From the NCBI GenBank assembly GCA_017642695.1, contig JAEPQD010000001.1:1745701-1809700 (forward strand): a stretch of DNA of 64,000 nucleotides, written 5' to 3'. The stretch is from Parvibaculum sp. (GTDB taxonomy: Bacteria; Pseudomonadota; Alphaproteobacteria; Parvibaculales; Parvibaculaceae). The notes beneath the pieces were generated by a model that ran no database searches, was not told where the DNA came from, and saw only the letters and a program-made list of their open reading frames with translations. Position numbers and translations under genes: made by a program. Below are positions 2 through 20,083 of the stretch, piece after piece (position 1 is the first letter of the stretch; each line of letters begins with the position of its first letter).

Positions 2-682
2 GCCGCGACCCATGCGAACCGCGCGAACCTCGCCGACGGCTTCTTCCGCACCGTGATCGCGCGCTACGAAGGCACGCGGCTCGGGCGGCAGGAACTCGAT
101 GCCGAACTGATCGAGGACAATCCGGACGCGATCTGGAGCCGCGAAACGGTTGAACGCGGCCGTGTGGCGAAAGCGCCGGCCGACCTCGTCCGCGTGGTGG
201 TGGGCGTCGACCCACCGGTAACAGGCGGCGCGAAGTCGGACGAATGCGGCATCGTCTGCGCGGGGCTTGGGCCGGACGGTCATGCCTATGTGCTGGACGA
301 CCGCTCGATGGGGCGGCTGTCGCCGCTCGCCTGGGCAAAGCGCGTCGCGGGCTGCTACCGCGCGCATGAGGCGGACCGGATCGTCGCCGAGGTAAACCAG
401 GGCGGCGACATGGTCGCGACGGTGATGCGGCAGGAACTGCCGGAAGCGCCGATCAGGCTGGTGCGCGCGACAAGGGGAAAGCGCGTCCGCGCCGAACCCG
501 TCGCCGCGCTTTACGAGCGGGGTCTCGTCCATCACGTGGGCGCCTTCGCGAAGCTGGAAGACCAGATGTGCGACTGGGTGCCTGGCGCAAAAAGCCCCGA
601 CCGGCTCGACGCGCTCGTCTGGGCACTGACGGAACTGATGCTCGGAGGAGAGGCAGGAGAACCTAAACTGAGGCGTTTATGA
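2..682 (+). CDS. GTA/phage large terminase, C-terminal part (5' truncated by window)
   Basis: This is the DNA-packaging motor of the GTA capsid, and only its C-terminal nuclease half is in the window. The reading frame is open from base 2 and runs through THANRANL and FFRTVIARYEGT, residues typical of the end of the ATPase part of RcGTA-type terminases. It is followed by an RNase H-like nuclease whose first acidic strand reads VGVDPP and which ends with a D-R-L-D-A segment. About 226 codons are visible and the stop is at 680-682. The GTG at 53 is internal, not the start. It is the first gene of the head module. The next head gene, the portal, starts about 1.5 kb later because a GAF-EAL gene lies between them. 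The family assignment is firm; GTA rather than ordinary phage is inferred from the cluster that follows. Confidence 0.88.
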   Translation, partial: AATHANRANLADGFFRTVIARYEGTRLGRQELDAELIEDNPDAIWSRETVERGRVAKAPADLVRVVVGVDPPVTGGAKSDECGIVCAGLGPDGHAYVLDDRSMGRLSPLAWAKRVAGCYRAHEADRIVAEVNQGGDMVATVMRQELPEAPIRLVRATRGKRVRAEPVAALYERGLVHHVGAFAKLEDQMCDWVPGAKSPDRLDALVWALTELMLGGEAGEPKLRRL

Positions 683-825
683 TTGAAAAAACGGTGCCTG
701 TTCTCCTCGGTGACGCATGCAGGACCCGCGCGGTTAGTCTTTCTTTAAACGGGTAATGTGACCTTGAGGGACCGCTGCAGGCAGGCCTCGCAGCGGGTTG
801 GTAGAGTATTGTCCGAGGTCCGTCC

Positions 826-2064
826 ATGCCGATCGGTATCCTGCAGCATCTGGCGCACGAAAACGCGCTTGCCGAGTCCGACACGATCAAGCGCGCGCTG
901 GAAGCGATCCGCAGCCATCTGGAGATGGATGTCGCCTATGTTTCGGAGTTCGTCGGCAACTTCTCCGTGATGCGGCAGGTCGATGCGCCGGGGCTCGAGG
1001 AACTGGTGAAGCCGGGCGATGCGAACTCGCTGGACGACGTCTATTGCCGTCATATCCTGGAAGGCCGGTTGCCGGAGCTGATGCCCGACACCTCGCAAAT
1101 CCCTTTCGCGGCCGACATGCCGATCACCGCGATGATCGGCTCGCATGTGAGCGTGCCGCTGCGCCGCCCGGACGGCGAGACCTACGGCATGTTCTGCTGC
1201 TTCTCGTCCGAGCCGAAGCCGTCGCTGAACGAACGCGACCTCAACATCACGCGCGCCTTTGCGAGCCTCGCCGCCGAGCAGATCGGACGTGACCTGGAAG
1301 CGAACCGGGAACGGGACGAGAAGATCGCGCGCATCCGCTCGGCGATCGACGCGGAAGCCTTTTCGCCGGTCTTCCAGCCGATCGTCGACCTCTACAGCAA
1401 CCAGACGATGGGTTACGAATGCCTGACGCGGTTCGCCGCCCTGCCGCTCCGCGCACCGGATGTCTGGTTCAATGAGGCGGCCGAAGTGGGCCTCGGCACC
1501 GAGCTCGAACTGGCGGCCCTGCGCGCGGCGCTGAAATGTCTCGTACATCTGCCCGACGACATAACGCTGTCGCTGAACGCCGCGCCGGAAACGCTGTTGC
1601 ATGAGGATTTTCCGGCGATCTTCGGCGGTCTGCCGCTGAATCGCATCGTGCTGGAAGTGACGGAACATGCGGAAGCCGCCGATTACGACGCGCTGCGCGT
1701 GTCGCTGAAGCCGCTGCGCGAGAAAGGGCTGAAACTCGCGGTGGACGACGCAGGCGCGGGCTATGCGAGCCTGCACCACATCCTGAAGCTCGAGCCCGAC
1801 ATGATCAAACTCGACATGTCGCTGACGCGCGACGTGCATGAAGACCCGGCGAAGCGCTCGCTCGCCGCCGCGCTGCTGCTCTTCGCGCGCCAGACCGGGA
1901 GCGAGATCGTGGCCGAAGGGATCGAGACGGCGCAGGAACTCGACGTGCTGAAATCGCTCGGCATCTCCAAGGGGCAGGGCTACCTGCTCGGCAGGCCGGC
2001 CCCGCTGGAAGAGGCGGTGGGCGCGCTGAAAGCGGCAAGGGCCGCGCCTTACATTTTTTCGTAG
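826..2064 (+). CDS. GAF-EAL cyclic-di-GMP phosphodiesterase inserted in the GTA cluster
   Basis: This is a 412-residue cytosolic signalling protein predicted to hydrolyse c-di-GMP. Residues about 15-160 look like a GAF sensor domain, a short charged helix follows, and residues about 178-400 are an EAL domain. The catalytic set appears complete. The signature Glu is in E198-C-L (ECL instead of EAL), Asn is 251, the ExxE strand ends at E280, the DD pair is D307-D308, Lys is 328, Glu is 364 and Gln is 384, before GYLLGRP. No membrane segment or GGDEF domain is present. It sits between terminase and portal on the same strand as the GTA genes, with 143 bases before it and a palindromic element after it. 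It is not a GTA structural gene. A link between c-di-GMP and GTA production is known in Rhodobacter; a regulatory role here is inference. Confidence 0.9.
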   Translation: MPIGILQHLAHENALAESDTIKRALEAIRSHLEMDVAYVSEFVGNFSVMRQVDAPGLEELVKPGDANSLDDVYCRHILEGRLPELMPDTSQIPFAADMPITAMIGSHVSVPLRRPDGETYGMFCCFSSEPKPSLNERDLNITRAFASLAAEQIGRDLEANRERDEKIARIRSAIDAEAFSPVFQPIVDLYSNQTMGYECLTRFAALPLRAPDVWFNEAAEVGLGTELELAALRAALKCLVHLPDDITLSLNAAPETLLHEDFPAIFGGLPLNRIVLEVTEHAEAADYDALRVSLKPLREKGLKLAVDDAGAGYASLHHILKLEPDMIKLDMSLTRDVHEDPAKRSLAAALLLFARQTGSEIVAEGIETAQELDVLKSLGISKGQGYLLGRPAPLEEAVGALKAARAAPYIFS

Positions 2065-2209: not shown

Positions 2210-3409
2210 ATGCCCAATCCGCTTGCCGCGCTCGCGGGCGCGTTGCGCCGCCGCGCGCCCGAACGAAAAGAGAGCCGGGTCGCGCCGGTGATCGCGCTCC
2301 ACATGCAGGGGCGGCCCGTCTGGACGCCGCGCGACTATGCGGCGCTGGCGGAGGAGGGCTACCGGCGGAACGCGGTCGCCTATCGCTGCGTGCGCATGAT
2401 CGCGGAGGCGGCGGCGAGCCTTCCGTGGCTACTCTATGACGGCGACAGGGAGCTTTCCGAGCATCCGTTGCTCTCGCTCATCGAACGGCCGAACGGCGCG
2501 CAGGCAGGCGCGGACTTGTTCGAGAGCTGGTACAGCTTCCTGCAGGTCGCCGGCAACAGCTACATGGAACTCGTGGAGGTGGACAGCGCTCCCCGCGAAC
2601 TCTACGTGCTGAGGCCGGACCGCATGAAGGCGGTGCCGGGGCGGAACGGCTGGCCCGAGGCTTACGAATATTCCGTCAACGGACGGGTGGTGACGATCCC
2701 GGCGGGCGCGCGGAGCGCCGTGCTGCACATGCGGCTCTTCAACCCGGTGGACGACCATTACGGGCAGAGCCCGCTGGAAGCCGCCGCCTGCGCCATCGAC
2801 ATCCATAACGCGGCGGGAAGCTGGAACAAGGCGCTGCTCGACAATGCGGCGCGGCCTTCCGGCGCGCTCGTCTACAAGGGCGGCGAGGCGGGCGCGAACC
2901 TCACCGAAGACCAGTTCGAGCGGCTGAAGCGCGAACTCGCCGAGAACTACCAGGGCGCGGCGAATGCCGGCCGGCCGCTGCTGCTGGAAGGAGGGCTCGA
3001 CTGGACGAGCATGGGACTTTCCCCGAAGGACATGGATTTCATCGAGGCGAAGCACGCGGCGGCGCGCGAGATCGCGCTCGCCTTCGGCGTGCCGCCCATG
3101 CTGCTCGGCATTCCGGGCGACAACACCTATGCGAACATGCGCGAGGCGAACCGCGCCTTCTGGCGGGGCACCGTGCTGCCGCTGGCGGGCCGCACCGCGC
3201 GGGCGCTGACGCATTGGCTGGGCCCCCGCTACGAGGGGAAGCTCCGCCTCTGGTACGACGCCGACGGTGTCGACGCACTCAGCGCCGACCGCGACGCGCT
3301 CTGGGCGCGGGTCACGCGCGCCGACTTCCTGAGCGACACGGAAAAACGCGAGGCCGTGGGATATGGCGAGAGGGAGAAGGAGGTCAGGCGCCGCGCGTCT
3401 TCGACTTGA
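2210..3409 (+). CDS. GTA/phage portal protein (HK97 family)
   Basis: This is the dodecameric ring at the capsid vertex through which DNA passes, joining head and tail. It is 399 residues long, normal for the HK97/RcGTA portal family. Family landmarks are the N-terminal YRRNAVAYRCVRMIAEAAAS helix, the YGQSPLEAA clip region, and the C-terminal GVPPMLLGIPGDNTYANM segment. The ATG at 2210 follows the palindromic element and the next GTA gene in the module is at 3714. Its last 26 bases overlap, tail to tail, the end of a small membrane gene on the other strand. Downstream come prohead protease and capsid in the usual GTA order. Confidence 0.93.
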   Translation: MPNPLAALAGALRRRAPERKESRVAPVIALHMQGRPVWTPRDYAALAEEGYRRNAVAYRCVRMIAEAAASLPWLLYDGDRELSEHPLLSLIERPNGAQAGADLFESWYSFLQVAGNSYMELVEVDSAPRELYVLRPDRMKAVPGRNGWPEAYEYSVNGRVVTIPAGARSAVLHMRLFNPVDDHYGQSPLEAAACAIDIHNAAGSWNKALLDNAARPSGALVYKGGEAGANLTEDQFERLKRELAENYQGAANAGRPLLLEGGLDWTSMGLSPKDMDFIEAKHAAAREIALAFGVPPMLLGIPGDNTYANMREANRAFWRGTVLPLAGRTARALTHWLGPRYEGKLRLWYDADGVDALSADRDALWARVTRADFLSDTEKREAVGYGEREKEVRRRASST

Positions 3410-3686
3410 GGATGTTCTGGACGGCGGCGACGATGCCGACGAAGCCGAACACGGTGAAGACGAAGCCGATGCCGACGCCCCGCATCTGCCAGGAAAGCGA
3501 AAGCAGCATGATGCCGATGACGAGGCTGAAGGCGCTGTGCGGCGAGAGCCTGTAGCCCTTGATCGTCAGGAGGGCGGGAACGGCGAAGCCCTTCGCGCGC
3601 GTGCGCTCCTCGGTCCAGATGAGGAGGAGGGGGCCGCAGGCGAGCGCGGCGCCCATGAGAAGGATCAGCCATTCGTCGGAAGTCAT
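3384..3686 (-). CDS. Small multi-spanning membrane protein, antisense within the GTA cluster
   Basis: A 100-residue hydrophobic protein starts MTSDEWLILLMG. Three membrane segments are visible, at about residues 6-24, 52-69 and 73-92, separated by a basic loop (ERTRAKG) and a positively charged tail (KSKTRGA). I do not recognise a family. It is read against the GTA genes: its 3' end overlaps the portal stop by 26 bases, and its ATG is only 27 bases from the start of the next + strand gene, so the divergent promoter space is tiny. The arrangement repeats at three other places in the cluster. The length, hydrophobicity pattern and clean start support a real gene, but function is unknown. Confidence 0.6.
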   Translation of the reverse strand: MTSDEWLILLMGAALACGPLLLIWTEERTRAKGFAVPALLTIKGYRLSPHSAFSLVIGIMLLSLSWQMRGVGIGFVFTVFGFVGIVAAVQNILKSKTRGA

Positions 3687-3713
3687 GTCGGGTCTTTCGA
3701 AAGGGGAGAGCCG

Positions 3714-3971
3714 GTGGAAGAGACAGCATACACGAAAGAGGCGCCTGTGTGGGCGATAGACCGCCGCGTGCCCGTGGCGGTGATCGTGACGATCCTGGTG
3801 CAATCGGCGGCGGCGCTTCTCTGGGCGGGCGCGGCGAATGAGCGCCTCGGCGCGCTCGAGACGCGGACAGAACGGATCGGCGAACTCGTCGAGCGCACCG
3901 CGCGGCTCGAGGAGCAGGCGAAGAGCGCGAACGCGGCGTTGGCGCGGATCGAGGAGAGGCTGGGGAGGTAG
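3714..3971 (+). CDS. Small membrane/coiled-coil protein at the RcGTA g3.5 position
   Basis: An 85-residue protein starts at GTG with a GGGGAG ribosome site just upstream. Residues about 19-38 (VAVIVTILVQSAAALLWAG) form one membrane helix. The remaining about 45 residues are a charged heptad-like helix (ERLGALETRTERIGELVERTARLEEQ). A short protein of this build lies between portal and prohead protease in many RcGTA-like clusters. Its role in GTA assembly is unknown to me. Its stop is 28 bases before a palindromic element and about 130 bases before an intrinsic terminator. Confidence 0.68.
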   Translation: MEETAYTKEAPVWAIDRRVPVAVIVTILVQSAAALLWAGAANERLGALETRTERIGELVERTARLEEQAKSANAALARIEERLGR

Positions 3972-3999
3972 GACGCCACCTTCGTCCTCAAAACAAGAC

Positions 4000-4085
4000 G
4001 TCACCCCCGAGCTTGACCCGGGGGTCCAGAGCAGCGCACGCGGAGCAAGCGGCCCCTGGATTGCCGGGTCAAGCCCGGCAATGAC
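4000..4085. repeat. Palindromic intergenic element (about 86 bp), copy 2
   Basis: Two arms of about 30 bases are separated by about 26 bases. The left arm begins GTCACCCCCGAGCTTGACCC and the right arm ends GGTCAAGCCCGGCAATGAC. The arms are reverse complements apart from a few mismatches, and each contains a GCTTGACCC/GGGTCAAGC core. It has the same outer ends as the element at 2090-2171, so the two probably belong to one repeat family. It sits between two GTA head genes. Confidence 0.78.
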
Positions 4086-4100
4086 AGTTGTGTTGATTGA

Positions 4101-4124
4101 AGGCGCCCCTGCGGCGCCTTTTTT
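4101..4124 (+). terminator. Intrinsic terminator before the prohead protease gene
   Basis: A GGCGCC stem, a five-base loop (CCTGC) and a second GGCGCC are followed by six T residues. This is a compact rho-independent terminator shape on the + strand. It lies inside the head gene run, 34 bases before the protease start, so it could reduce read-through from the upstream genes or belong to the repeat next to it. Confidence 0.7.
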
Positions 4125-4158
4125 GTTGCGCGGAACCATGCCCATACGGAGGAAACGA

Positions 4159-4830
4159 GTGACCGAGGCCGTGACGAAACAGGAAGGCGAGCGGAAGGCG
4201 GCGCGCTTCGAGGCGAAGGCCGTGAAGGCGGATGGGAGCTTCGAGGGCTATGCCTCGCTTTTCGGGGCGGAGGATCTCGGACGCGACGTGGTGATGCCCG
4301 GCGCGTTCCGCAAATCGCTGCTGAAGCGGGGGCCGCGCGGCGTGAAGCTTCTCTACCAGCACGAGCCGAACGAGGTGATCGGCACCTGGGAAGAGATCAA
4401 GGAGGATGCGCGCGGGCTCTTCGTGCGCGGGCAGCTCCTCACCGACGTCATGCGCGCCCGCGAGGTGCTGGCGCTGATGCGGGCGGGCGCCGTCGACGGG
4501 CTTTCCATCGGCTATCACGTGGTGAAGGCAGAGAGCGACCGCGCGAGCGGCGCGCGCCGCCTTCACGAAGTCGACCTCTGGGAAATCTCGGTCGTGACCT
4601 TCCCGATGCTCCCCGCCGCGCGGGTGAGCGCGGTGAAGCGGGACGGCCGCCCCACCACACGCGAATTCGAACGCTGGCTCATGCAGGACGCTGGGTTCAG
4701 CCGGACCGAAGCCCGGACGATCGTCCAGCGGGGCTTCAAGGCGCTGCCTGCCCCGCGGGAGGCGGGGAGCGCGAGCGACCAGGCGCTTGCCCGTGCGTTC
4801 CGTGCGGCGGCGCGGCTTTTCACGAGCTGA
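4159..4830 (+). CDS. GTA prohead maturation protease (HK97 family, U35)
   Basis: This serine protease cleaves the capsid protein scaffold during head maturation. It is about 223 residues from the GTG at 4159, chosen because GGAGG lies six bases upstream; an in-frame ATG at 4138 is possible. The family pattern is clear: EGYASLFG near the N-terminus, the catalytic histidine at about 68 in LYQHEPNEVIG, and the serine at about 116 in DGLSIGY, followed by WEISVVTFPM. It immediately precedes the major capsid gene with a 36-base gap, as in HK97-type phages and RcGTA. Confidence 0.92.
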   Translation: MTEAVTKQEGERKAARFEAKAVKADGSFEGYASLFGAEDLGRDVVMPGAFRKSLLKRGPRGVKLLYQHEPNEVIGTWEEIKEDARGLFVRGQLLTDVMRAREVLALMRAGAVDGLSIGYHVVKAESDRASGARRLHEVDLWEISVVTFPMLPAARVSAVKRDGRPTTREFERWLMQDAGFSRTEARTIVQRGFKALPAPREAGSASDQALARAFRAAARLFTS

Positions 4831-4866
4831 ACCCGACACATCCCAACACCTGAACGGAGACGACAC

Positions 4867-6168
4867 ATGTCGCAGTGGAACGACGGCGTGCCGCGCATCG
4901 GCGCGTCGCTGAAGGAAGAGGCGCGCGCGCCCGAGACGAAAAGCGGCGAGGGACATGCCAGCGCACATGAAGTGCGCGAGGCGATGGACGAGTTTCTGTC
5001 CTCCTTCGAGGAGTTCAAATCCGCGAATGACGAGCGGCTCGGCGAACTCGAACGCAAGCTGACCGCCGACGTGATCGCGGAGGAAAAGGTGGAGCGCATC
5101 AACCGCGCGCTCGACCAGCAGAAGAAGAAGCTCGACGAACTGACGCTTGCCGCCCAGCGCCCCGACCTCGGCGGCCGGGCGGAATGCGGGCATGCCGAGC
5201 GCGAGCACAAGCGCGCCTTCGAGGGCTATGTGCGCAAGGGCGAGGCGCAGGAGCTGCGCGGGCTGGAGGCGAAGGCGCTGTCCATGCAGTCCGACCCGGA
5301 TGGCGGCTATCTGGTGCCCGCCGAGACGGAACGCATGATCGAGCGGATCGTGTCCGAGGTGTCGCCGATCCGCGCCATCGCCGGCCTGCGCCGGATCGGG
5401 GCGCAGAGCTACAAGAAGCCCTTCTCGACGGGCGGTGCGCAGACGGGCTGGGTGGGCGAGACGGAAGCGCGGCCGCAGACGGCGACGCCCTCGCTTGCCG
5501 AGATCGAGTTTCCGGCGATGGAGCTTTATGCCATGCCGGCGGCGACGCCGACGCTGCTCGACGATGCGGCGGTCAATATCGACCAGTGGCTCGCCGAAGA
5601 AGTGCAGACCGCCTTCGTCGAACAGGAGGGCGCGGCCTTCGTCAATGGCGACGGCGTGAAGAAGCCGCGCGGCTTCCTCGACTATGATCGCGTGGCGGAC
5701 GGCGCCTGGGAATGGGGCAAGCTCGGCTTCATCGCGACCGGAAACGAAGGCGGCTTTCCGACCTCGAACCCGGGCGACAAGCTGATCGACCTCGTTTATG
5801 CGGTGAAGTCCGGCTACCGCACGAATGGCCGCTTCGTGATGAACCGCACCACCCAGGCGGCGATCCGGAAGTTCAAGGACACGGAAGGCAACTATCTCTG
5901 GCAGCCCGCGCTCGCGGCCGGCCAGCCGCCGACGCTGCTGAACTATCCGGTGACCGAGGCCGAGGACATGCCGTCCGTCTCGGCGGATGCGCCCGCGGTC
6001 GCTTTCGGCGATTTCCGCCGGGGCTATCTGATCGTCGACCGGGTGGGCGTGCGCGTGCTGCGCGATCCCTACAGCGCGAAACCCTACGTGCTGTTCTACA
6101 CGACGAAACGGGTCGGCGGCGGCGTGCAGAACTTCGAGGCGATCAAGTTCCTCCAGTTCTCGTCGTGA
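4867..6168 (+). CDS. GTA major capsid protein (HK97 fold)
   Basis: This 433-residue protein builds the capsid shell. The first about 110 residues are a charged, helical delta/scaffold region (KLTADVIAEEKVERINRALDQ), expected to be removed by the protease encoded just upstream. The rest is an HK97-fold shell protein with the family stretch SDPDGGYLVPAE (from about residue 141), a TPTLLDDAAVNI segment, FVNGDGVKKPRGFL, and the C-terminal DFRRGYLIVDRVGVRVLRDPY motif. Length and architecture match RcGTA gene 5. A short gap leads to the next gene at about 6181. Confidence 0.95.
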   Translation: MSQWNDGVPRIGASLKEEARAPETKSGEGHASAHEVREAMDEFLSSFEEFKSANDERLGELERKLTADVIAEEKVERINRALDQQKKKLDELTLAAQRPDLGGRAECGHAEREHKRAFEGYVRKGEAQELRGLEAKALSMQSDPDGGYLVPAETERMIERIVSEVSPIRAIAGLRRIGAQSYKKPFSTGGAQTGWVGETEARPQTATPSLAEIEFPAMELYAMPAATPTLLDDAAVNIDQWLAEEVQTAFVEQEGAAFVNGDGVKKPRGFLDYDRVADGAWEWGKLGFIATGNEGGFPTSNPGDKLIDLVYAVKSGYRTNGRFVMNRTTQAAIRKFKDTEGNYLWQPALAAGQPPTLLNYPVTEAEDMPSVSADAPAVAFGDFRRGYLIVDRVGVRVLRDPYSAKPYVLFYTTKRVGGGVQNFEAIKFLQFSS

Positions 6169-6180
6169 GAGGTGATGCAG

Positions 6181-6612
6181 ATGCGTGACATTCACAATGG
6201 ACTGAAGGTGGTGCAGACGCTCGCCCCGAAACTGACGGCCGAAACGCGCTACGGCGCGCCCGTCGACCGCAAGGGCTTCGGCGCGGTGGAGCACATCGTC
6301 TCCGTCGGCACGGCGGGCGATGCCTTGTCGGAGACGGTTTCGATCGCCTGCGCAATCGAGGCGTCCGACGACGGCGCGACATGGGCCCCCGTGACGGCGG
6401 CGCATGAAGTGCTGGGCGAGGCGCCCGACGAAGCCGGCGTCTTCGCGCTCCTGGACACCGAGGCGGCGGACCTCCGCGACTACCGCATCGGCTATGCCGG
6501 TCCGGCGCGCTACACGCGCGTCGGCGTCGTGCTGACGGGCACCCATGCGGAAGGTACGCCCGTTGCGGCGCTCGCGCTTCTCGGCGCCGCGCAATTGAAG
6601 CCGGTGGGTTAG
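6181..6612 (+). CDS. Hypothetical GTA-cluster protein after capsid
   Basis: About 143 residues, starting MRDIHNGLKVVQTLAP. Starts at GTG 6172, ATG 6175 and ATG 6181 are all possible; 6181 has the best spacing from AGAGG. The sequence is rich in short strands and small residues (AIEASDDGATW, YRIGYAGPARYTRVGVVL), which suggests a beta-rich particle protein. Proteins of this kind follow the capsid gene in some alphaproteobacterial GTA-like and phage clusters, so a head decoration or accessory role is plausible. I do not recognise a defined family. Confidence 0.68.
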   Translation: MRDIHNGLKVVQTLAPKLTAETRYGAPVDRKGFGAVEHIVSVGTAGDALSETVSIACAIEASDDGATWAPVTAAHEVLGEAPDEAGVFALLDTEAADLRDYRIGYAGPARYTRVGVVLTGTHAEGTPVAALALLGAAQLKPVG

Positions 6613-6628: not shown

Positions 6629-6772
6629 TCCCACCCTCCCCTCGGGGAGGGTCGAAATTCACGGGGCTTCTTGCCTCGTGAATTTCGGGGGGGCTGACGC
6701 TCGGAAATCCCCCGCCCCGAAAAATTCTTCGCGGGCTCGAATTTTTCGACCCGCCCCCAAGGGCGGGTGGGA
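6629..6772. repeat. Nested palindromic element (about 144 bp)
   Basis: The outer arms (6629-6660 and 6739-6772) are imperfect inverted copies beginning TCCCACCC and ending GGGTGGGA. Inside are two perfect 10-base hairpins: GAAATTCACG/CGTGAATTTC at 6654-6663 and 6677-6686, and CGAAAAATTC/GAATTTTTCG at 6718-6727 and 6739-6748. The whole can fold as a cruciform or branched RNA. It is unlike the elements at 2090 and 4000 in sequence. It fills the gap between the gene at 6181 and the head-tail connector gene. Confidence 0.8.
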
Positions 6773-6802: not shown

Positions 6803-7366
6803 ATGACCCTGACCCTCATCGCGGGGCCCGCAGCGGAGCCCGTGTCGCTCGCCGAGGCGCGCGCGCATCTGAAGCTCGACGCGACCGACGAGGACGCGCT
6901 GCTCGGTGCGCTCGTGACCGCGGCGCGCACCCTGCTCGAAGCCGAAACGCGGCGCGCCTTCATGACGCAGAGCTGGCGGCTGACGCTGGACGAATGGCCC
7001 GCGGGCGCACTGGCCCTCCCGCTCGCGCCGGTGGCGGGCGTGACCGCGGTGAAGGTGGCGGCGCTGAGCGGCGCCATGATCGAGATGGACCCCGGTTTCT
7101 ACGAGGTGGACGCACTGGGCGAACCGCCGCGCATCGCCGCGAAACGCGGGCAGGCCTGGCCGATGCCCGCGACGCGGCTTGCGGGCATCTCCGTCGATTT
7201 CGACGCGGGCTACGGCGCGGCGGCGGATGTGCCCATGCCGCTCCGGCAGGCGGTGCTGCTGCTTGCGTCGCACTGGTTCGAGAACCGCGAGCCCGTCGGC
7301 GACGGCGTCGAGTTGCCGCTCACCGTCTCCGCGCTCGTCGCGCGCTACCGGAGGTTGCGGCTGTGA
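6803..7366 (+). CDS. GTA head-tail connector (gp6-like adaptor)
   Basis: A 187-residue protein of the phage gp6-like connector family. The N-terminal pattern (PVSLAEARAHLKLDATDEDALL, then helices with EAETRRAF and SWRLTLDEWP) is the characteristic opening of these proteins. The C-terminus has LRQAVLLLASHWFENREP. It forms the ring below the portal. It corresponds to RcGTA gene 6. Its stop overlaps the GTG of the next gene by three bases, so the two are translationally coupled. Confidence 0.88.
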   Translation: MTLTLIAGPAAEPVSLAEARAHLKLDATDEDALLGALVTAARTLLEAETRRAFMTQSWRLTLDEWPAGALALPLAPVAGVTAVKVAALSGAMIEMDPGFYEVDALGEPPRIAAKRGQAWPMPATRLAGISVDFDAGYGAAADVPMPLRQAVLLLASHWFENREPVGDGVELPLTVSALVARYRRLRL

Positions 7367-7677
7367 TCGGTCAAATGCGCGAACGTGTGACGCTGCAGGC
7401 GCCGGTGCGGTTGCCCGACGGCGCGGGCGGGGCAGATGCCGCGTGGGACGCGGCGGCAACGGTCTGGGCGAAAGTGGAAGAGCGCAGCGGCGAGGAACGG
7501 ACGGCCGGCGAACGGCTCGCGGCGGAGGCGCGGCTCCGCGTGACGATCCGCCACCGCTCCGGCGTGACGGCGGAAATGCGCGCCCTCTGGAACGGGCGCG
7601 CGCTGGAGATTACGGGCATACGCGACCCGGACGGCCGCAAGCGCTTTCTCGTGCTCGATTGCGAGGAACGGCCATGA
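7363..7677 (+). CDS. GTA head closure / head-tail adaptor
   Basis: A 104-residue protein of the SPP1 gp16-like head closure family, equivalent to RcGTA gene 7. Visible features are the opening MRERVTLQAPV, the central WAKVEERSGEE, and the strand RVTIRHRSGVTAEMR leading to a C-terminal LEITGIRDPDGRKRFL. It closes the bottom of the connector after DNA packaging. The GTG start lies within the stop region of the connector gene, and its own stop overlaps the next ATG, giving a chain of coupled genes. Confidence 0.88.
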   Translation: MIGQMRERVTLQAPVRLPDGAGGADAAWDAAATVWAKVEERSGEERTAGERLAAEARLRVTIRHRSGVTAEMRALWNGRALEITGIRDPDGRKRFLVLDCEERP

Positions 7678-8075
7678 ACGCGGACCTCGCGCTTCAGAAG
7701 GCCATTTACGAGCGGCTTGCGGGCGATGCGGCGCTCGCCGCGCTTGCCGGTGCGCGCCTCTATGATAATCCGCCGGGCGATACCGCGCTCCCCTATCTCA
7801 CGCTCGGCGAAAACGAGACGCGCGCCTGGCCGGGCGGCCGGGAGCATCGGCTGGCGTTTCACGTCTTTTCGCGCGGCGGCGGCCGCGCGGAAGCGAAACG
7901 CCTCATGGCGGCGGTGGAGACGGCGCTTCACGACGCGGCGCTGGCGCTGGAAGGACATGCGCTCGTCAATCTGCGCTTCCTCGAGGGAACGACGCGGCGC
8001 GAGGCGGACGGCGCAACCTGGCGCGGCACGATCCGCTTCCGGGCGGTGACGGAAGAAACGGGAGAACCAGCATGA
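7674..8075 (+). CDS. GTA tail terminator/completion protein (DUF3168)
   Basis: A 133-residue DUF3168 protein equivalent to RcGTA gene 8. Family features are the N-terminal LQKAIYERLAGDAAL, LYDNPPGDTALPYLTLGE, and the strand HRLAFHVFSR. It caps the tail tube and joins it to the head. It overlaps both neighbours by four bases (ATGA type), typical of this tight block. Confidence 0.9.
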   Translation: MNADLALQKAIYERLAGDAALAALAGARLYDNPPGDTALPYLTLGENETRAWPGGREHRLAFHVFSRGGGRAEAKRLMAAVETALHDAALALEGHALVNLRFLEGTTRREADGATWRGTIRFRAVTEETGEPA

Positions 8076-12683: not shown

Positions 12684-14138
12684 TCAGAAAAAGCCGGGAA
12701 AGGACAAAGCGAGCGACGCTTCCATTCTATCGACGCCGGCCAGGACGTTGTTCCCGGCCTGGTTCCGTTCCGGCAGCGAGCGCCCGAAATCGTAGAACAG
12801 CCATGCGATATTGTGGTCGAAGGAGCGGACATAGTAGTCGCCGATATCCTGGTAGAAGTTCGACGCATAGGGATTGCCGCGTATCGCGCCTTGCAGAAGC
12901 CGCAGGGCTTCTTCTTTCCGCTTGTCCTGTGCGATGAGGCCATTCGCGAGAAAGGCGTCGATGAGGTAGGCGTTGGATATGTCCTTCCGGTCGATCCCCT
13001 CGCGCATGGCGGTGGCGGCGGCAGGGTCCGTTGCGTCCAGTTGCAGCGACGTCATCAACGCCGTCGCCCGCTCGTCTTTTCTGGCGGCCTCGATGATCTC
13101 CGGGAATGTGTGGCAGGAGGAATCCGCCGGGTCGCAGGTTTCGAGCTGATCGCCACGCTGCAGGGAAAGTTCTAACGCCAGTGTCAGCGCCTGCAGGATC
13201 TTCTTCTCGCGCATGGCGGCGTCGATGGCGGACTTGTAGCTGGCTGTGGTGCGCGGACCCGATCCATACGTCCCGGCAGTCGCCTGAAGCATCACCGGCA
13301 GCAGGTCGCGAACAGGCGTCAACTCGTCGCTATGTGTCAGGGTGAGCGGCTCCGGCTTGTAGTCGGCCGGAAGCGGGTAGTCCGCCTTTGCGTCACCCGT
13401 TGACTTCAACTCCAAAGTGACGTGACGCGATTCCGGCAGAGCGGAGTTCGGCATGTAGACGTAGGAAATCGTCTGCGGAACGAATTCGAGCTCGGCCAGC
13501 GCGTCGGCGATGTCGGGATGCACCTGCAGACGATAGCGCATGTATTGAACGAAACGTTGCCGCAGGGAACCGGGCAGCCGCACGGTTGAAGGAGTGACGC
13601 TTACAACTTCGACGCCGTCATAGACGAAACCAAGGGTTCCGTCCGGTCCGCGCGTCTTCTCTATCGCGGGATTCGGTTCGTCGGGAAGCGGCACACCGAG
13701 CTCGGCGCCGACGTAGTAGGGGTCGATCTGTCTGGCGAGGTCCGAATTCATCGCCCTCAGGGTTTTGCGCATATGGGTGCGATTCATCGCCTCATGGACG
13801 CGGAACGATACGTGCCAGAAAAGCGACCAGTTGGCGAAGCTGCGTTTTTCCGGAACGATGTCTATGGCACGGCGCAACTTGAAATCCAGGACGGTTTGCT
13901 GATCCTCCGATTTGATTGCGACGTATCCCGGCGCCAGCGTGACCTCCATCGGACTTGAGACACCGTCGATGGTTTTCTCGTAGGCGATGCGGTAGGCGGG
14001 ACCGGGGTCGCCATGCGCTGCACGTATCTCGGCTGCGCTGGCCTGAGGGCCGATGAGCGGTGCTGCATGTCCCTCGACAGTAGAGACCGCCGTCAGAACG
14101 GCAATGACGGCAAGAGATGCCCTGAACAGATTTCGCAT
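12684..14138 (-). CDS. Large periplasmic protein of unknown function with helical repeat C-terminus
   Basis: A 484-residue protein with a signal peptide (RASLAVIAVLTAVSTVEGHA). The middle part is mixed strands (AIDIVPEKRS, FVYDGVEVVSV, TISYVYMPNSALPES). The C-terminal 200 residues are helical and TPR-like (ALTLALELSLQRGDQ, EALRLLQGAIRGNPYASNFYQDIGDYY), with two cysteines close together (CDPADSSC). I do not recognise a named family. It is antisense between GTA genes g12 and g13, 6 bases from the g12 stop, with a 109-base divergent gap before g13. Third-codon GC appears lower than in neighbouring GTA genes. A cell-envelope role is the most that can be inferred. Confidence 0.7.
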   Translation of the reverse strand: MRNLFRASLAVIAVLTAVSTVEGHAAPLIGPQASAAEIRAAHGDPGPAYRIAYEKTIDGVSSPMEVTLAPGYVAIKSEDQQTVLDFKLRRAIDIVPEKRSFANWSLFWHVSFRVHEAMNRTHMRKTLRAMNSDLARQIDPYYVGAELGVPLPDEPNPAIEKTRGPDGTLGFVYDGVEVVSVTPSTVRLPGSLRQRFVQYMRYRLQVHPDIADALAELEFVPQTISYVYMPNSALPESRHVTLELKSTGDAKADYPLPADYKPEPLTLTHSDELTPVRDLLPVMLQATAGTYGSGPRTTASYKSAIDAAMREKKILQALTLALELSLQRGDQLETCDPADSSCHTFPEIIEAARKDERATALMTSLQLDATDPAAATAMREGIDRKDISNAYLIDAFLANGLIAQDKRKEEALRLLQGAIRGNPYASNFYQDIGDYYVRSFDHNIAWLFYDFGRSLPERNQAGNNVLAGVDRMEASLALSFPGFF

Positions 14139-14247: not shown

Positions 14248-15093
14248 ATGAAAACCCTCTCTCCCGAACTTGCCGCACATCTCGCGGGCGGAACGACGAC
14301 GCTCGCCTGGTGCTGGAAGCTCATCCGCCGCGACGGCGCGGTGCTCGGCTTCACGGAGCATGACCGCGATTTGAGTTTCGGCGGCACGACCTACGAGGCG
14401 GCGGGCGGCTTCACGGCCTCCGCGCTCGAAAGCACGGGCGGGCTCAACATCGACAATCTCGACGTCGCGGGCGCGCTTTCCTCCGCGCGGCTCGACGAAG
14501 GCGACCTCGCGGCGGGTCTCTACGACGACGCGGAAGTGGAAATCTGGCGCGTGAACTGGGCGGACACGGAACAGCGCTTGCTGATGCGCAAGGGCAATCT
14601 CGGCGAGGTGTCGCGCTCGGGGAACGCCTTCTCGGCGGAGCTGCGCGGCCTCGCCCATCGCCTGAACCAGCCGGTCGGGCGGCTCTATCAATATGGCTGC
14701 GACGCCGATTTCGGCGACGGGCGCTGCGGGCTCGATGCGGGCGCATGGACGGCAGCGGCAACGGTCGTGAGCGCGAGCGGCAATCGCGAGCTGGTCGTGG
14801 CGGGGATCGACGGCTTCGCGGCGGGGCATTTCACGCGCGGACGTCTTGTTTTCACAAACGGTGCAAATGAAGGCGCGGCGATGGAAGTGAAGGCGCATGA
14901 GAAGGGTGGCCGGATCGAACTCTGGCGTGCGATGGCGCGCGAGGTCGAGGCGGGCGACACATTTGAGGTGCTGGCCGGATGCGACAAGCAGTTTGCCACC
15001 TGCGGCAAGAAATTCGCGAATGGCGAGAACTTTCGCGGCTTCCCGCACATGCCGGGCAACGACTTCGTGCTCGCGAGCGCGGCGCGCAAATGA
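14248..15093 (+). CDS. GTA tail tip protein (DUF2163, g13)
   Basis: A 281-residue DUF2163 protein equivalent to RcGTA gene 13. Family landmarks are the opening ELAAHLAGGTTTLAWCWKL, FTEHDRDLSFGGTTYEAA, VEIWRVNWAD, LRGLAHRLNQPVGRLYQ, and the conserved cysteines in YGCDADFGDGRCG and GCDKQFATCGKKF. These form part of the tail hub, with cysteines that in related proteins bind iron-sulfur. The ATG at 14248 is preceded by AGGAAAG. It overlaps the next gene by four bases. Confidence 0.93.
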   Translation: MKTLSPELAAHLAGGTTTLAWCWKLIRRDGAVLGFTEHDRDLSFGGTTYEAAGGFTASALESTGGLNIDNLDVAGALSSARLDEGDLAAGLYDDAEVEIWRVNWADTEQRLLMRKGNLGEVSRSGNAFSAELRGLAHRLNQPVGRLYQYGCDADFGDGRCGLDAGAWTAAATVVSASGNRELVVAGIDGFAAGHFTRGRLVFTNGANEGAAMEVKAHEKGGRIELWRAMAREVEAGDTFEVLAGCDKQFATCGKKFANGENFRGFPHMPGNDFVLASAARK

Positions 15094-15533
15094 CGACACG
15101 CGCGGAGATCGTCGCCGCGGCGCGCGGCTGGATCGGCACGCCCTATCGCCACCAGGCGAGCACGAAGGGCGCGGGCTGCGACTGTCTCGGGCTGCTTCGT
15201 GGCGTCTGGCGCGAGGTTCTGGGACCGGAGCCCGAAACGCCGCCTGCCTATTCCGCCGGCTGGGCGGAGGCGCCGGGCGCTATGCCGATGGAAGCGATGG
15301 CGGAAGCGGCGCGGCGGCACATGAGCGAAATCGCGCCCGGCGATGCGCGCGAAGGCGACGCGCTTCTCTTCCGGATGCGGCGCAACGGACCGGCGAAGCA
15401 TGTCGCGATCCAGACGGACGGGGATCGCATGATCCATGCCTGGTCGGGACATGCGGTGGTGGAGACTTGCCTCGGCAAATGGTGGCGCGCGCGGATCGCG
15501 CATGCGTTCCGTTTTCCGGGCGTGGAGGACTGA
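15090..15533 (+). CDS. GTA NlpC/P60 peptidase (g14)
   Basis: A 147-residue NlpC/P60-fold cell wall peptidase, equivalent to RcGTA gene 14. Visible motifs are ARGWIGTPYRHQ and the catalytic cysteine in G-C-D-C-L-G, with the histidine in K-H-V-A-I-Q. It is expected to cut peptidoglycan during DNA delivery from the tail tip. The start overlaps the stop of g13, and the host-specificity gene begins one base after its stop, so the three are one translational unit. Confidence 0.93.
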   Translation: MTTRAEIVAAARGWIGTPYRHQASTKGAGCDCLGLLRGVWREVLGPEPETPPAYSAGWAEAPGAMPMEAMAEAARRHMSEIAPGDAREGDALLFRMRRNGPAKHVAIQTDGDRMIHAWSGHAVVETCLGKWWRARIAHAFRFPGVED

Positions 15534-15534
15534 G

Positions 15535-18500
15535 ATGGCGACGCTGGTTCTTTCGAGCGCGGGCTCGGCGCTGGGCAGCGCGCTGCTGCCCTCGGGGCTT
15601 TCCTTCTTCGGCACGACGATCTCGGGCGCGGCGCTGGGCGGCGCGCTCGGCTCCCTCGCGGGCTCCTTCGTCGATGCGCAACTCTTCGGCGCGTCGAGCC
15701 ACGCGGAAGGGCCGCGGCTTTCCGATCTCCATGTGATGGCGTCGAGCGAAGGCGCACCCATCCCGCGTATCTATGGCCGTGCGCGGATCGGCGGGCAGGT
15801 GATCTGGGCGACGGATTACGTCGAACACAGGCGGCGGCGCAGCGCGGGCGGCGGCAAGGGCGGCGGCTCGTCCGCGAGCGTGACGGAATACAGCTACAGC
15901 ACCTCCTTCGCGGTCGCGCTTTGCGAAGGCGAGGTGACGCGCATCGGCCGTGTCTGGGCGGACGGGAAGCCGCTCTCGCTCGGGAACCTGACATGGCGGC
16001 TCCATCGTGGCGGCGGGGCGCAGGAAGCGGACCCGCTGATCGAGGCGCTGGAAGGCGAGGCGCCCGCCTATCGCGGCACGGCCTATGTTGTTTTCGAGGA
16101 CATGGATGTTGCGCCCTTCGGTAACCGCATCCCGCAGCTGAGCTTCGAGGTCTTCCGCACGCTCGACACGGTGGAGGGGCTCGTGCGGGCGGTGACGGTG
16201 ATCCCCGGGGCGGGTGAATTCGTCTACGACACGGTGGCGACGCGCGAAATCCTGACCGAGACGTCGAGTCGGCAGGTGAACACGCATATGACGGGCGGCG
16301 TCACGGACTTCGTAGCGGCGATGGATGAACTGGAAGCGGCGCTGCCGAATGCGCGCGCGGTTTCGCTCGTCGTCTCCTGGTTCGGCGACGACCTGCGCTG
16401 CGGCGACTGCACGCTGCGGCCGACGATCGAAGACAGGCTGAGGATCACGCGGCCCGGCGACTGGGGTGTCGCGGGACTGACGCGACTGAGCGCGCAGGAA
16501 GTAAGCCGCGTGGACGGCAAGCCTGCCTATGGCGGCACGCCGTCGGACGCAAGCGTGAAGCGCGCGCTCGCGGATCTGAAAGCTCGCGGGCTCGCGACCG
16601 TCTTCTATCCCTTCGTGATGATGGATATTCCCAAAGAGAACGATCTTCCCGATCCCTCGGGCGCAGGCACACAACCGGCGCATCCTTGGCGCGGGCGTAT
16701 CACCGCGGCGGGCGACGCAAATGCGGACGTCGCAGCCTTCTTCGGCAGCGAGACGCCGGGCGGGAGCGAATGGAGCTACCGCCGCATGGTCCTGCACTAT
16801 GCGCATCTCTGCGCTGAGGCGGGCGGGGTCGATGCCTTTCTCATCGGCTCGGAACTGAAGGGACTGACGCAACTCCGCGCGGCGGATGGCAGCTATCCCG
16901 CCGTCGAGGCGCTGCGCGAACTCGCGGGCGACGTGCGCGCGATCCTCGGGGAGACAACGAAGATCTCCTATGCCGCCGACTGGTCTGAGTATCGGGGCCA
17001 TGACATGGGCGGCGGCGCCTTTACCTTCCATCTCGATCCGCTCTGGGCAGACGCGAATATCGACTTCATCGGCATCGACATGTATGCGCCGCTGACCGAC
17101 TGGCGTGACGGGCACACGCATCTCGACGCACTCGACTGGAGCTCGATCTACGACCTCGACTATCTCAAGAGCCGCATTGCGGGTGGCGAGGGATACGACT
17201 GGCATTATGCGAGCGAGGAGGACCGGTTCGCGCAGGCTCGCACGCCGATTACCGACGGCGCTTACGGCAAGCCGTGGATATGGCGCGCGAAGGACCTGAA
17301 GAACTGGTGGTCGAACGCGCATTACGACCGGCCGGACGGGACCGAGGCGGTGGAGCCGACGGCATGGGTGCCGCAGTCGAAACCGATCTGGTTCACCGAA
17401 CTCGGCTGCGCGGCGGCGGACAAGGGCACGAACGAACCCAACGTTTTCACCGATCCGAAATCGTCCGAAAGCGCGCTGCCGCGTTTCTCGCGGGGGACGC
17501 GCGACGATTTCATCCAGCGCCGCTTCATCGAGGCGGAGATGTCCTACTGGGATGCGGGCCATCCCGATCACCCGGCAGGCGCGAACCCCGTCTCTTCCGT
17601 CTATGGCGGGCGAATGGTCGATGCCTCGCGCATCTTCTTCTGGACCTGGGACGCGCGGCCCTTTCCCGTCTTTCCGGAACGGCAGGACGTCTGGGCGGAT
17701 GCGGCCAACTGGCAGCTCGGCCACTGGCTGAACGGCCGCATGGGCACCGCGCCCCTGAACGCGCTTCTGGCTTCGATCATGAGCGATTCCGGCTTCGGGC
17801 ATTTCGAGGCAGGCGGTCTTCACGGCGTCGTTGAAGGTTACGTCATCGACCGCATCATGAGTCCCCGGGCAGCGATCGAACCCCTGATGCTGGCAGGTTT
17901 CTTCGACGCGGCAGAGCGCGATGGCGCGATCCGCTTCCGGCATCTCGACGATGCGCCAGAGACCGCACTGACGCCGGACATGCTGGCGGTGGACGCGGAA
18001 GACGCCGCGCCCGGCTGGAGGCTCACGCGCGGGCAGGAAACCGAGCTGCCGGTCTCGGCGAAGCTCACCTATATCGACGGCGGCGCGGACTATCGTCAGG
18101 CGGCCGTGGAGGCGCGGCGTCTCAGCGGCGGGAGCCAGCGCGTTGCGGCAAGCGCACTTCCGATGGTGCTGACGCAGGTGGAGGCGCAGACGATCGCCGA
18201 TGTGTGGCTGCAGAAGACATGGGAGGAACGCGAGCGTGCGGCACTCAGTTTGCCGCCGCATCTGATCGCGCTCGATCCCGGCGATCAAGTGACGGTCGAT
18301 TTCGGCCACAGGCGGGGCCGCTATCGGCTGACGGGCATTGTGGATGCGGGTGCGCGGGAGGCTGCGGGTGTCGCCTGCGAGCCGAGCCTGTTCGGGGCGC
18401 CTCAAGCGCCATCGCGCGCGAGCGATCCTGCGACGCCGCCGGACTGGGGACCACCGCTGGCGGTCTTCATGGATCTGCCCCTGATAACGGGAGAGGAAAC

Positions 18501-19389
18501 GCCACATGCGCCGCGCATCGCCGTGGCGGCCGATCCGTGGCCGGGCGGTGTCGCGATCTACAAGGATGGCGGTGCGGGTCTCGCGCTCGACAGTGTGGTG
18601 AGCGCGGAGGCAACCATCGGACGCACGCTGTCCGGCCTGATGCCCGGTCCCACGTCGCGGTGGGACGAGTCGAATATATTCACCGTGCTGCTTGTGAGCG
18701 GCGCGTTGTCGAGTGCGGAGCCCCTGGCCGTTCTTGGCGGCGCGAACCGCGCGGCGGTCGAAACGCCGGACGGGGGCTGGGAGGTGATCCAGTTCCGCGA
18801 GGCCGAGCTTGTCGCGGCCGATACCTATGTCCTTCGCGGACTTCTGCGCGGACAGGCCGGAACGGAAGCGGCGATGCGAACACCGCTCGCGCCGGGCGCG
18901 CGTTTCGTGCTGCTCGACGAGGCGGTGAGCGAACTCGGGCTTGGCGAAGCGGAGCGTGGGCTCGAACGGCTCTGGGTCTGGGGACCGGCACCTCTCCCTT
19001 ACGACGATCCTTCCTATGCGAGCGAGACGCGCGCCTTCGAGGGCGCCGGACTTCGGCCGTTGAGCCCGGTTCATCTTCACGCGCGGCGGGCGGGCGACGG
19101 TGCGATTCATCTCACATGGGTTCGCCGCACACGCATCGGTGGCGACAGCTGGGCCGGGCTCGACGTGCCGCTCGGCGAGGAGACGGAGGCCTATGAAGTC
19201 GAAATCCGCGATGGTGAAAGCGTGAAGCGCGTCATCGCTGCGTCATCGCCGGCGGTGATCTACGGCGCGGGCGAACAGGCCGCCGACTTCGGCGGCGTGG
19301 AAATCGAGACGCTCGACGTTACCATTCATCAGTTGAGCCGCGCCTTTGGCCGCGGTACCGGAAGGAGCGCCACGCTGCATGTCCGATAG
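15535..19389 (+). CDS. GTA host specificity / tail tip megatron protein (g15)
   Basis: A 1284-residue protein, close in length to RcGTA gene 15. The N-terminus is small-residue rich (AGSALGSALLPSGLSFFGT). Residues about 400-680 form the GTA-specific TIM-barrel-like domain (WSYRRMVLHYAHLCAEAGG, FLIGSELKGL, YAADWSEYRG, FIGIDMYAPLTDW, KPIWFTELGC). It then continues into the phage-tail type beta-rich region with WTWDARPFPVFP, and repeat FN3-like modules at the C-terminus. It is the tail fibre hub that contacts the recipient. The stop overlaps the following gene by 11 bases. The long opposite-strand frame over this gene is a shadow. Confidence 0.95.
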   Translation: MATLVLSSAGSALGSALLPSGLSFFGTTISGAALGGALGSLAGSFVDAQLFGASSHAEGPRLSDLHVMASSEGAPIPRIYGRARIGGQVIWATDYVEHRRRRSAGGGKGGGSSASVTEYSYSTSFAVALCEGEVTRIGRVWADGKPLSLGNLTWRLHRGGGAQEADPLIEALEGEAPAYRGTAYVVFEDMDVAPFGNRIPQLSFEVFRTLDTVEGLVRAVTVIPGAGEFVYDTVATREILTETSSRQVNTHMTGGVTDFVAAMDELEAALPNARAVSLVVSWFGDDLRCGDCTLRPTIEDRLRITRPGDWGVAGLTRLSAQEVSRVDGKPAYGGTPSDASVKRALADLKARGLATVFYPFVMMDIPKENDLPDPSGAGTQPAHPWRGRITAAGDANADVAAFFGSETPGGSEWSYRRMVLHYAHLCAEAGGVDAFLIGSELKGLTQLRAADGSYPAVEALRELAGDVRAILGETTKISYAADWSEYRGHDMGGGAFTFHLDPLWADANIDFIGIDMYAPLTDWRDGHTHLDALDWSSIYDLDYLKSRIAGGEGYDWHYASEEDRFAQARTPITDGAYGKPWIWRAKDLKNWWSNAHYDRPDGTEAVEPTAWVPQSKPIWFTELGCAAADKGTNEPNVFTDPKSSESALPRFSRGTRDDFIQRRFIEAEMSYWDAGHPDHPAGANPVSSVYGGRMVDASRIFFWTWDARPFPVFPERQDVWADAANWQLGHWLNGRMGTAPLNALLASIMSDSGFGHFEAGGLHGVVEGYVIDRIMSPRAAIEPLMLAGFFDAAERDGAIRFRHLDDAPETALTPDMLAVDAEDAAPGWRLTRGQETELPVSAKLTYIDGGADYRQAAVEARRLSGGSQRVAASALPMVLTQVEAQTIADVWLQKTWEERERAALSLPPHLIALDPGDQVTVDFGHRRGRYRLTGIVDAGAREAAGVACEPSLFGAPQAPSRASDPATPPDWGPPLAVFMDLPLITGEETPHAPRIAVAADPWPGGVAIYKDGGAGLALDSVVSAEATIGRTLSGLMPGPTSRWDESNIFTVLLVSGALSSAEPLAVLGGANRAAVETPDGGWEVIQFREAELVAADTYVLRGLLRGQAGTEAAMRTPLAPGARFVLLDEAVSELGLGEAERGLERLWVWGPAPLPYDDPSYASETRAFEGAGLRPLSPVHLHARRAGDGAIHLTWVRRTRIGGDSWAGLDVPLGEETEAYEVEIRDGESVKRVIAASSPAVIYGAGEQAADFGGVEIETLDVTIHQLSRAFGRGTGRSATLHVR

Positions 19390-20083
19390 TTTTCATCTGG
19401 GACTTCCCTTTCTCGAAGCCGCGCAGGCGCAGAAGCATGTGACGGTGAACGAGGCGCTGCGAAGGCTCGATGCGCTGCTGCATCTCTCCGTCGTCTCGCG
19501 GACGCTTGCCATACCGCCCGCTGAGCCGGAGGAGGGCGCGCGCTACATCATTGCTGCGGATGCGGTCGATGCGTGGGAAGGGCATGACGGGGAGATCGCG
19601 GCGCTGATTGACGGGGCATGGGTGTTCTTTGCGGCGAAGGCTGGATGGCAGGCCTATGACGAAGCGGCGGGTGTTCTCCTCCTCCATGACGGCACGGACT
19701 GGATGCTGCCCGCGAGCATGGGGAGCAGCGGCGCGGCAACCGCGTTCAGTCTTGTGGAAGGTGAGCACGATGTGGGCGCAGGGGCGATTTCCGATACGTC
19801 ATTCGTCATTCCGGACCGGGCCATCGTGCTCGGCGTGACCGGCGTGGTGATAGAGGCGATCACTGGCGCGAGCGGGTGGAAGCTCGGCGTTGCCGACGAT
19901 CCCATGCGCTACGGCAACGGTATCGGCGCGATGCTCCACGCAACGGTGACTGGCGTGAGCAGCACGCCGGTCGCCTATTACGGCGCGACACCCCTCCGCG
20001 TCACGGCGGAAGGCGGCGACTTCACCGGGGGCCGCGTGCGGCTCGCAATCCACTGCCTGGAACTGAGCGGACCGGGCGCCTGA
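19379..20083 (+). CDS. DUF2793 protein, GTA head-spike/tail-accessory type
   Basis: A 234-residue DUF2793 protein starting MSDSFHLGLPFLEAAQAQKHVTVNEAL, which is cut here to the recognised parts: F-L-x-x-A-Q-A-Q-K-H and V-N-E-A-L-R-R-L-D. This signature is common downstream of g15, and a DUF2793 protein is part of the RcGTA spike gene pair. The C-terminal half (GVVIEAITGASGWKLGVADDP) is a beta-rich receptor-type domain. The start overlaps g15. In RcGTA the related genes are elsewhere, so its place here is as in other alphaproteobacterial clusters. Confidence 0.85.
   Translation: MSDSFHLGLPFLEAAQAQKHVTVNEALRRLDALLHLSVVSRTLAIPPAEPEEGARYIIAADAVDAWEGHDGEIAALIDGAWVFFAAKAGWQAYDEAAGVLLLHDGTDWMLPASMGSSGAATAFSLVEGEHDVGAGAISDTSFVIPDRAIVLGVTGVVIEAITGASGWKLGVADDPMRYGNGIGAMLHATVTGVSSTPVAYYGATPLRVTAEGGDFTGGRVRLAIHCLELSGPGA

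Follow-up and report, generated by a model that had tools for sequence, protein, structure and literature searches.

Why does a gene transfer agent (GTA) cluster carry genes without a GTA role between intact structural genes, and why do these differ from one relative to the next? The question is raised by a 64,000-nucleotide stretch of DNA (G000:C1:1745701–1809700; 'the window') from a Parvibaculum genome of 3.62 Mb, in which positions 1–20083 hold what its genes identify as an RcGTA-type cluster with six such genes at five junctions, antisense to the GTA genes at four of them (Table 1). We give a probability of about 0.7 to the reading that GTA junctions are landing sites for moron-like cassettes of one or a few genes, exchanged by way of the conserved GTA genes that flank them. 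In phages, morons are accessory genes at sites between prophage structural genes. The inserts resemble them in lying between intact structural genes, in their patchy spread and in being often antisense or of different composition; they differ in that the host element is a GTA, which is not self-transmitting as a unit, and in that promoter and terminator scans gave results at or below chance.

We aligned the window gene by gene with 19 other loci of the genus that bear the tail tube gene, several of which are cut by contig ends. The backbone of GTA genes was collinear wherever it was reached, except in two metagenome-assembled genomes (L028 and L035). Most of the genus shares a conserved, collinear backbone, in which one sister species may have a cassette that another lacks or has exchanged for a different one, with the neighboring GTA genes intact. 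The proposed landing junctions lie between terminase and portal (site A), portal and protease (site B), tail tube and gp10 (site C), g10.1 and tape measure (site D), and DUF2460 and DUF2163 (site E). Across 12 genomes, 24 of 187 GTA junction instances exceeded 350 bp, as opposed to 1 of 186 instances between adjoining host genes (Fisher test, 7e-7); above 700 bp the counts were 16 and 1 (2e-4). The host count omits a junction that was long in each of the ten genomes scored for it (10 instances), and Insert B, which sits in a gap of ∼300 bp, falls below the 350-bp threshold and is not counted. Long gaps were found at only 6 of the 16 GTA junctions and never at the remaining 10. The variation in inserts is clearly far above that of the adjoining host genes.

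Turnover was estimated on a tree of the backbone with 19 rows, from which L038 (17% of columns) was excluded; traits were scored by hand and unread sites mostly omitted. Below, C1 and C2 are called lip and sec, and Insert D adpr, a name used here only as a label. The fewest changes needed were four for lip at site C and two for lip at site D, three for sec type 1 and two for sec type 2, three for adpr, two for Insert E, five for a lipoprotein pair found in relatives, and one for a holin-like gene. Four chosen pairs of sister loci, compared along their DNA, all differed in inserts. Two (the window and L023; L024 and L025) differ by presence or absence and two by allele-like replacement. Between L027 and L028, whose backbones are 95% identical, the stretch from gp10 through the lipoprotein pair is 96–99% identical and lip 89–100%, but most of the sec gene between those flanks is 50–57% identical, an allele replacement. 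Between L029 and L030, identity drops from 87–95% to 46–61% across site C. Gene content likewise differs between L036 and L037 and between L040 and L041.

The two sec classes are 36–44% identical to each other, and each recurs in more distant species (73% identity between L024 and L027, 69% between the window and L028). Insert E of the window is 48% identical to that of L027 over a backbone identity of 78%, and so has either evolved fast or arrived more than once; adpr presents the reverse case, at 95% identity over a backbone of 82%. Most cassette genes show low ratios of nonsynonymous to synonymous substitution (dN/dS): 0.13 for the EAL gene (Insert A), 0.05 for adpr, 0.17 for lip and 0.07 for sec, with a range of 0.05–0.22 over these four and Insert E in same-type pairs. 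The description of the six genes as foreign in the initial annotation fits some of them: three inserts have a GC content of 0.60–0.63, compared with 0.66–0.73 for GTA genes, and within the 40 genomes of the family they occur in Parvibaculum only. It does not fit Insert B, a stable partner of the portal gene that is present in 10 of 16 scorable loci with one change on the tree.

The same turnover might be expected if the cluster were simply a safe harbor, a mostly silent region in which tolerated chance insertions pile up at gene ends for reasons unrelated to GTA biology. The products are of unrelated kinds (an EAL protein, secreted proteins and, elsewhere, a signal peptidase), sites are empty in several relatives, the insert-bearing cluster of L028 has lost tail genes, and in G003 what is left of adpr in the GTA cluster is a remnant that contains a stop codon (G003:C23:126188–126304), so that cassettes evidently also decay. 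Neutral accumulation would, however, leave unexplained the low dN/dS of most inserts, the use of only 6 of 16 junctions, and the enrichment of one family, that of lip, which has 19 of its 25 matches among the 40 genomes in the cluster and occupies two junctions there, sites C and D. We consider this explanation possible but doubtful.

That the cluster is of RcGTA type, vertically inherited and at a fixed chromosomal place, is indicated by several properties of its genes. The gene order and all coordinates of the initial annotation were re-derived, and its assignment to an RcGTA-like system instead of an ordinary phage was borne out: the expected head and tail families are named by Pfam and NCBIfam profiles, the megatron matches NF048004 above the curated GTA cut-off, and the three proteins tested (megatron, hub and capsid) all have their nearest solved structures in RcGTA, 6tba and 6tb9 (E values in Table 1). 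The run from terminase to megatron also follows what we take to be the RcGTA order, the differences being the six extra genes at five junctions and a regulator split into two genes. That regulator, a gafYZ-like operon, lies ∼29–33 kb upstream of the cluster in a run of genes for MucR, a DnaA-C protein, a DUF6456 protein (the only one in the genome) and SufE, the same synteny as reported for gafA loci of Hyphomicrobiales (PMC9638019). GTA genes of P. lavamentivorans have already been stated (PMC4110880).

The tail tube gene is present in 20 of 27 genomes of the genus (16 of the 19 better ones), and DUF2460 in 32 of the 40 genomes that represent the order, all of which belong to a single family. 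Host genes encoding ABC-F, penicillin-binding, CxxCxxCC and DUF2177 proteins, a phosphate transporter and a NUDIX protein lie upstream, and a cell-wall hydrolase, a dehydrogenase and two acyl-CoA dehydrogenases downstream; the host genes h00–h06 come after the cluster in 12 of 12 genomes. Consistent with the initial report of no integrase, the eight tyrosine integrase matches in the genome all lie at least ∼440 kb away (serine integrases were not searched), and no replication genes occur among the genes flanking the cluster, from which alone this point was judged. It is accordingly very improbable that the cluster is a prophage, defective or ordinary, that carries accessory genes. The backbone genes all derive from phages, prophages often have inserts between their phage genes, and two relatives have deleted clusters; a prophage is nevertheless hard to reconcile with the fixed place among the same host neighbors, a backbone that is collinear across most of the genus, low dN/dS, RcGTA as the closest solved relative, the gafYZ-like operon and the lack of a nearby tyrosine integrase.

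Directly after the cluster lie a cell-wall hydrolase gene (20185–20532; PF07486) and a gene for a 63-residue protein that is membrane-like by inspection (20551–20742), and comparable small genes follow the cluster in several relatives. The pair is a candidate GTA lysis module. The endolysin family PF05838 had no match in the same genome, nor in any of 14 control genomes, so that its absence is not shown.

The arrangement of the inserts had been read as a sign of selection for compact insertion. Its description is exact, every coordinate of the six genes, five sites and four tail-to-tail contacts having been reproduced: the portal gene (ending at 3409) and antisense Insert B (from 3384) have 26 nucleotides (nt) in common, the tail tube gene (8485) and lip (8491) are 5 nt apart, g10.1 (11020) and adpr (11017) have a CTAG in common, and DUF2460 (12677) and Insert E (12684) are 6 nt apart. 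Elsewhere in the genome (15 sampled 20-kb stretches plus positions 20–64 kb of the window), however, 17 of 46 convergent gene pairs are separated by 10 nt or less, overlaps included, and relatives of lip at non-GTA loci also lie tail to tail with their neighbors (6 nt in L043, 9 nt in L042). Because so many background pairs are equally close, compactness at four of four sites is only weakly above chance (∼0.02, for sites that had been picked for looking striking), and we dropped compact abutment, ordinary for convergent genes here, as main evidence. Nor is antisense orientation a rule for inserts: among 72 non-backbone open reading frames inside the clusters of the genus, 39 are antisense and 33 sense (a few short ones may be spurious).

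These counts bear on the proposal that the antisense inserts are regulatory, their transcription colliding with the GTA transcript and keeping the cluster off in non-producing cells. It would account for the antisense genes at four of five sites, with 3′ ends that touch or overlap GTA genes, and for the overlap of 20–32 nt between portal and Insert B that is kept in nine loci (in L031 an extra gene lies between the two). At site C the gap is 1–7 nt in seven of eight loci and 29 nt in one. Several relatives (L025, L033 and L034) nonetheless lack antisense inserts at sites C, D and E, nearly half of the inserts are sense, and convergent abutment is common in this genome; we regard regulation by collision as quite unlikely.

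Under the preferred reading of exchanged cassettes, replacement would occur by homologous recombination between conserved GTA genes on both sides, with the DNA brought by GTA particles, by natural uptake or by other routes. Each cassette would have a promoter of its own that is active in non-producing cells, and the GTA operon would tolerate them if its RNA polymerase were antiterminated by the GafYZ-like pair, as in Caulobacter. Envelope-directed products may alter the cell surface and so pay for the upkeep of the cassettes.

The antitermination step is suggested by a terminator-like hairpin before the protease gene, which our own scan found in 12 of 16 loci of the genus; the same scan before each of the other 15 genes gave 0–3 of 16–20 loci. 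Windows upstream of the protease gene read on the minus strand contained a hairpin in 7 of 16, and the hairpin is therefore partly bidirectional. Its arms co-vary in L040 (by inspection), and its folding z-scores in three loci are −3.6, −4.9 and −2.4. GafZ of Caulobacter is reported to enable polymerase to read past terminators of the GTA cluster (PMC11150451). The Parvibaculum system resembles the Caulobacter GTA (CcGTA) described there in having a split DnaA-like and DUF6456 pair and a terminator-like element in the cluster; it differs in that the Caulobacter terminator consists of three 150-bp repeats after the first gene and the Parvibaculum element of one short hairpin before the protease gene. 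The hairpin suggests antiterminated transcription that would tolerate inserts, and a DUF6456 protein acting like GafZ could allow polymerase to pass antisense inserts as well. Hairpins of this kind also lie ahead of two genes in other Hyphomicrobiales, the connector gene in 19 of 63 loci (3 in the minus-strand control) and g15 in 11 of 56 (0 in the control).

The lip and sec proteins have two beta-rich repeats and, by inspection, lipoprotein or secretion signals; lip, sec, adpr, Insert E and Insert B belong to no known family. The fold model of lip is good (mean pLDDT 85.9) and had no match in the PDB at an E value of 0.001 or better; a relationship to DUF4397, prompted by a pithovirus protein in a viral-library search (E = 3e-4), was rejected as too weak for function (TM-scores 0.22–0.28), and the model of Insert E was unusable (mean pLDDT 47.6, two sequences). 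Eight proteins had no match to PADLOC defense systems at an E value of 0.01, and positions 1–21000 had none in Rfam at gathering score. The lip family occurs in 13 of 27 Parvibaculum genomes and in none of the 13 genomes from elsewhere in the bacterial family. Insert E has three copies in the 40 genomes, all after DUF2460, the third directly so in G022; Insert A is found, besides the window, only in L023 among loci of the genus that reach its site.

Just upstream of the sec gene, positions 10416–10436 form a perfect 8-bp palindrome with a 5-nt spacer, which is kept in L023 and L024 and altered yet palindromic in L027 and L028. A shared insert operator was considered and rejected, since this palindrome, before 10397, occurs nowhere else in the genome even when one mismatch is allowed. 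In one Parvibaculum clade (L036, at 10557–11276, L037 and L039–L041; oriented loci), site D holds relatives of phrog_17576 and phrog_26778 that on inspection look like holin and Rz1 genes and may be lysis genes inside the GTA cluster; the holin-like protein of these relatives was not found in the genome of the window at an E value of 0.1, in a search that had no positive control.

The envelope-directed set comprises the two-repeat lipoprotein-like family (with two deep allele classes at one site), the 484-residue protein of Insert E and the lipoprotein pair of relatives. We think it unlikely, if somewhat less so than regulation by collision, that these cassettes are dedicated GTA partners that set which cells receive DNA or shield kin or producers. 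If they were, particle genes and recipient-recognition genes would lie in one locus, and the swapping of alleles at a fixed site with near-identical flanks would reflect selection on recipient specificity.

Several observations weigh against the view of GTA junctions as cassette landing sites. Six of the 25 lip-family and two of the six adpr matches lie outside the cluster, so that neither family is strictly bound to the GTA; five of the six off-cluster lip matches (L042–L046) are among seemingly ordinary host genes, as judged by inspection. The EAL gene and Insert B change just once each on the tree, dN/dS is 0.26–0.64 for Insert B and its synonymous component saturated (dS 2.3) for Insert E, and the sister group of L033, L034 and L035 is empty throughout sites C, D and E. 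The 350-bp threshold takes in some long gaps without open reading frames (for example, L030 at site A), the host control is a single 23-kb stretch that may be unusually stable, and the genome counts are not independent because of shared descent. A general scan of the region gave 8 terminator-like sites compared with 13.4 in shuffled sequence, a promoter scan gave 1 compared with 2.0 expected, and the antitermination step is inferred from homology and a terminator-like hairpin. In G001, a genome of the Parvibaculum group with a completeness rating of 100%, neither the tail tube nor DUF2460 had a match, and the GTA may have been lost there. The cluster of L028 ends within DUF2460, with hub, peptidase and megatron gone (at 13171–13311 the start of DUF2460 is joined to the end of a small gene located downstream of the cluster elsewhere, and DUF2460 has no match in that genome), and L035 lacks portal and protease, its terminase and capsid forming one frame (oriented 3051–5666). 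These two deletions represent either real loss or assembly error.

The initial annotation would have been contradicted had the inserts been conserved parts of most GTA clusters, and outside Parvibaculum they are not. Among 67 non-Parvibaculum GTA loci (the best 80 loci listed less 13 from Parvibaculum, some ending at contig ends), the families of Insert B, lip, sec, adpr and Insert E had no match and the EAL protein one weak match (30%, L103), and gaps of more than 250 bp at sites C, D and E were found in 3, 1 and 1 loci, respectively. The clusters of other Hyphomicrobiales have different inserts, and at different junctions (by automatic calls of open reading frames), and insertion into GTA clusters therefore appears to be a wider habit, with sites and cargo specific to each clade. 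An antisense gene of 79–84 codons recurs between tape measure and DUF2460 in Stappia, Roseibium and their relatives (loci between L087 and L131). A search of titles and the start of abstracts, which did not cover subscription papers, found no paper on inserts within alphaproteobacterial GTA clusters. Older comparisons of RcGTA clusters may mention extra open reading frames.

The features of the cluster are collected in Table 1. Inverted-repeat elements also occupy three of its longer intergenic gaps (2089–2172, 4000–4085 and 6629–6772).

Table 1. Genes and elements of the Parvibaculum GTA cluster (window positions; inserts are lettered by site)
Feature	Position	Strand	Family, match or remark
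Large terminase (g2-like), 3′ part	2–682	+	PF03237/PF17289; whole gene at L002:9333–10682
Insert A, GAF-EAL protein, probable cyclic di-GMP phosphodiesterase	826–2064	+	PF00563 3e-51, GAF
Portal (g3-like)	2210–3409	+	PF04860 4e-90
Insert B, 100-residue protein, membrane-like by inspection, overlaps portal end	3384–3686	-	No family
Small protein, transmembrane segment and coiled coil by inspection; presumably g3.5-like, from its position	3714–3971	+	Conserved in genus
Intrinsic terminator-like hairpin and T run, before protease	4099–4126	+	
HK97-type prohead protease (g4-like), GTG start 4159, GGAGG upstream	4159–4830	+	TIGR01543 (frame from 4138)
Major capsid protein (g5-like)	4867–6168	+	PF05065; 6tb9 2e-97
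Backbone protein between capsid and connector	6175–6612	+	In all 18 other genus loci reaching the position; no NCBIfam family
Head-tail connector	6803–7366	+	TIGR02215
Head closure protein	7375–7677	+	TIGR01563
Tail completion protein	7674–8075	+	PF11367
Tail tube protein	8072–8485	+	PF06199
Insert C1 (lip), two-repeat beta lipoprotein-like protein	8491–9390	-	No family
Insert C2 (sec, allele type 1), C1 paralogue, secreted by inspection	9429–10397	-	
GTA gp10 family	10494–10820	+	PF11836
g10.1, rcc01693 family	10817–11020	+	TIGR02216, PF09550
Insert D (adpr), 113-residue protein	11017–11358	-	No Pfam, NCBIfam or PHROG family
Short RcGTA-type tape measure	11417–12043	+	NF058675 3e-56, 190.7 bits, below curated cut-off of 220
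Distal tail protein, DUF2460	12045–12677	+	TIGR02217, PF09343
Insert E, 484-residue protein, signal-peptide-like start by inspection	12684–14138	-	Start best placed at 14138
Hub protein, DUF2163	14248–15093	+	PF09931; 6tba 2e-65
NlpC/P60 tail peptidase	15090–15533	+	PF00877
Megatron (g15)	15535–19389	+	NF048004 over cut-off; 6tba E=0
DUF2793 protein	19379–20083	+	PF10983

The usual view of GTA clusters is that of frozen structural loci, and their upkeep is puzzling because, as has been argued (PMC6209664), GTAs cannot spread their own genes efficiently. A GTA cluster that serves as a hotspot for accessory genes would offer a further reason, open to testing, why selection might act on the locus. 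Pairs of sister species that differ in an empty versus an occupied site, or in one allele versus another, are natural material for such tests, and the internal hairpin would allow a direct test of GafZ-type antitermination beyond Caulobacter.

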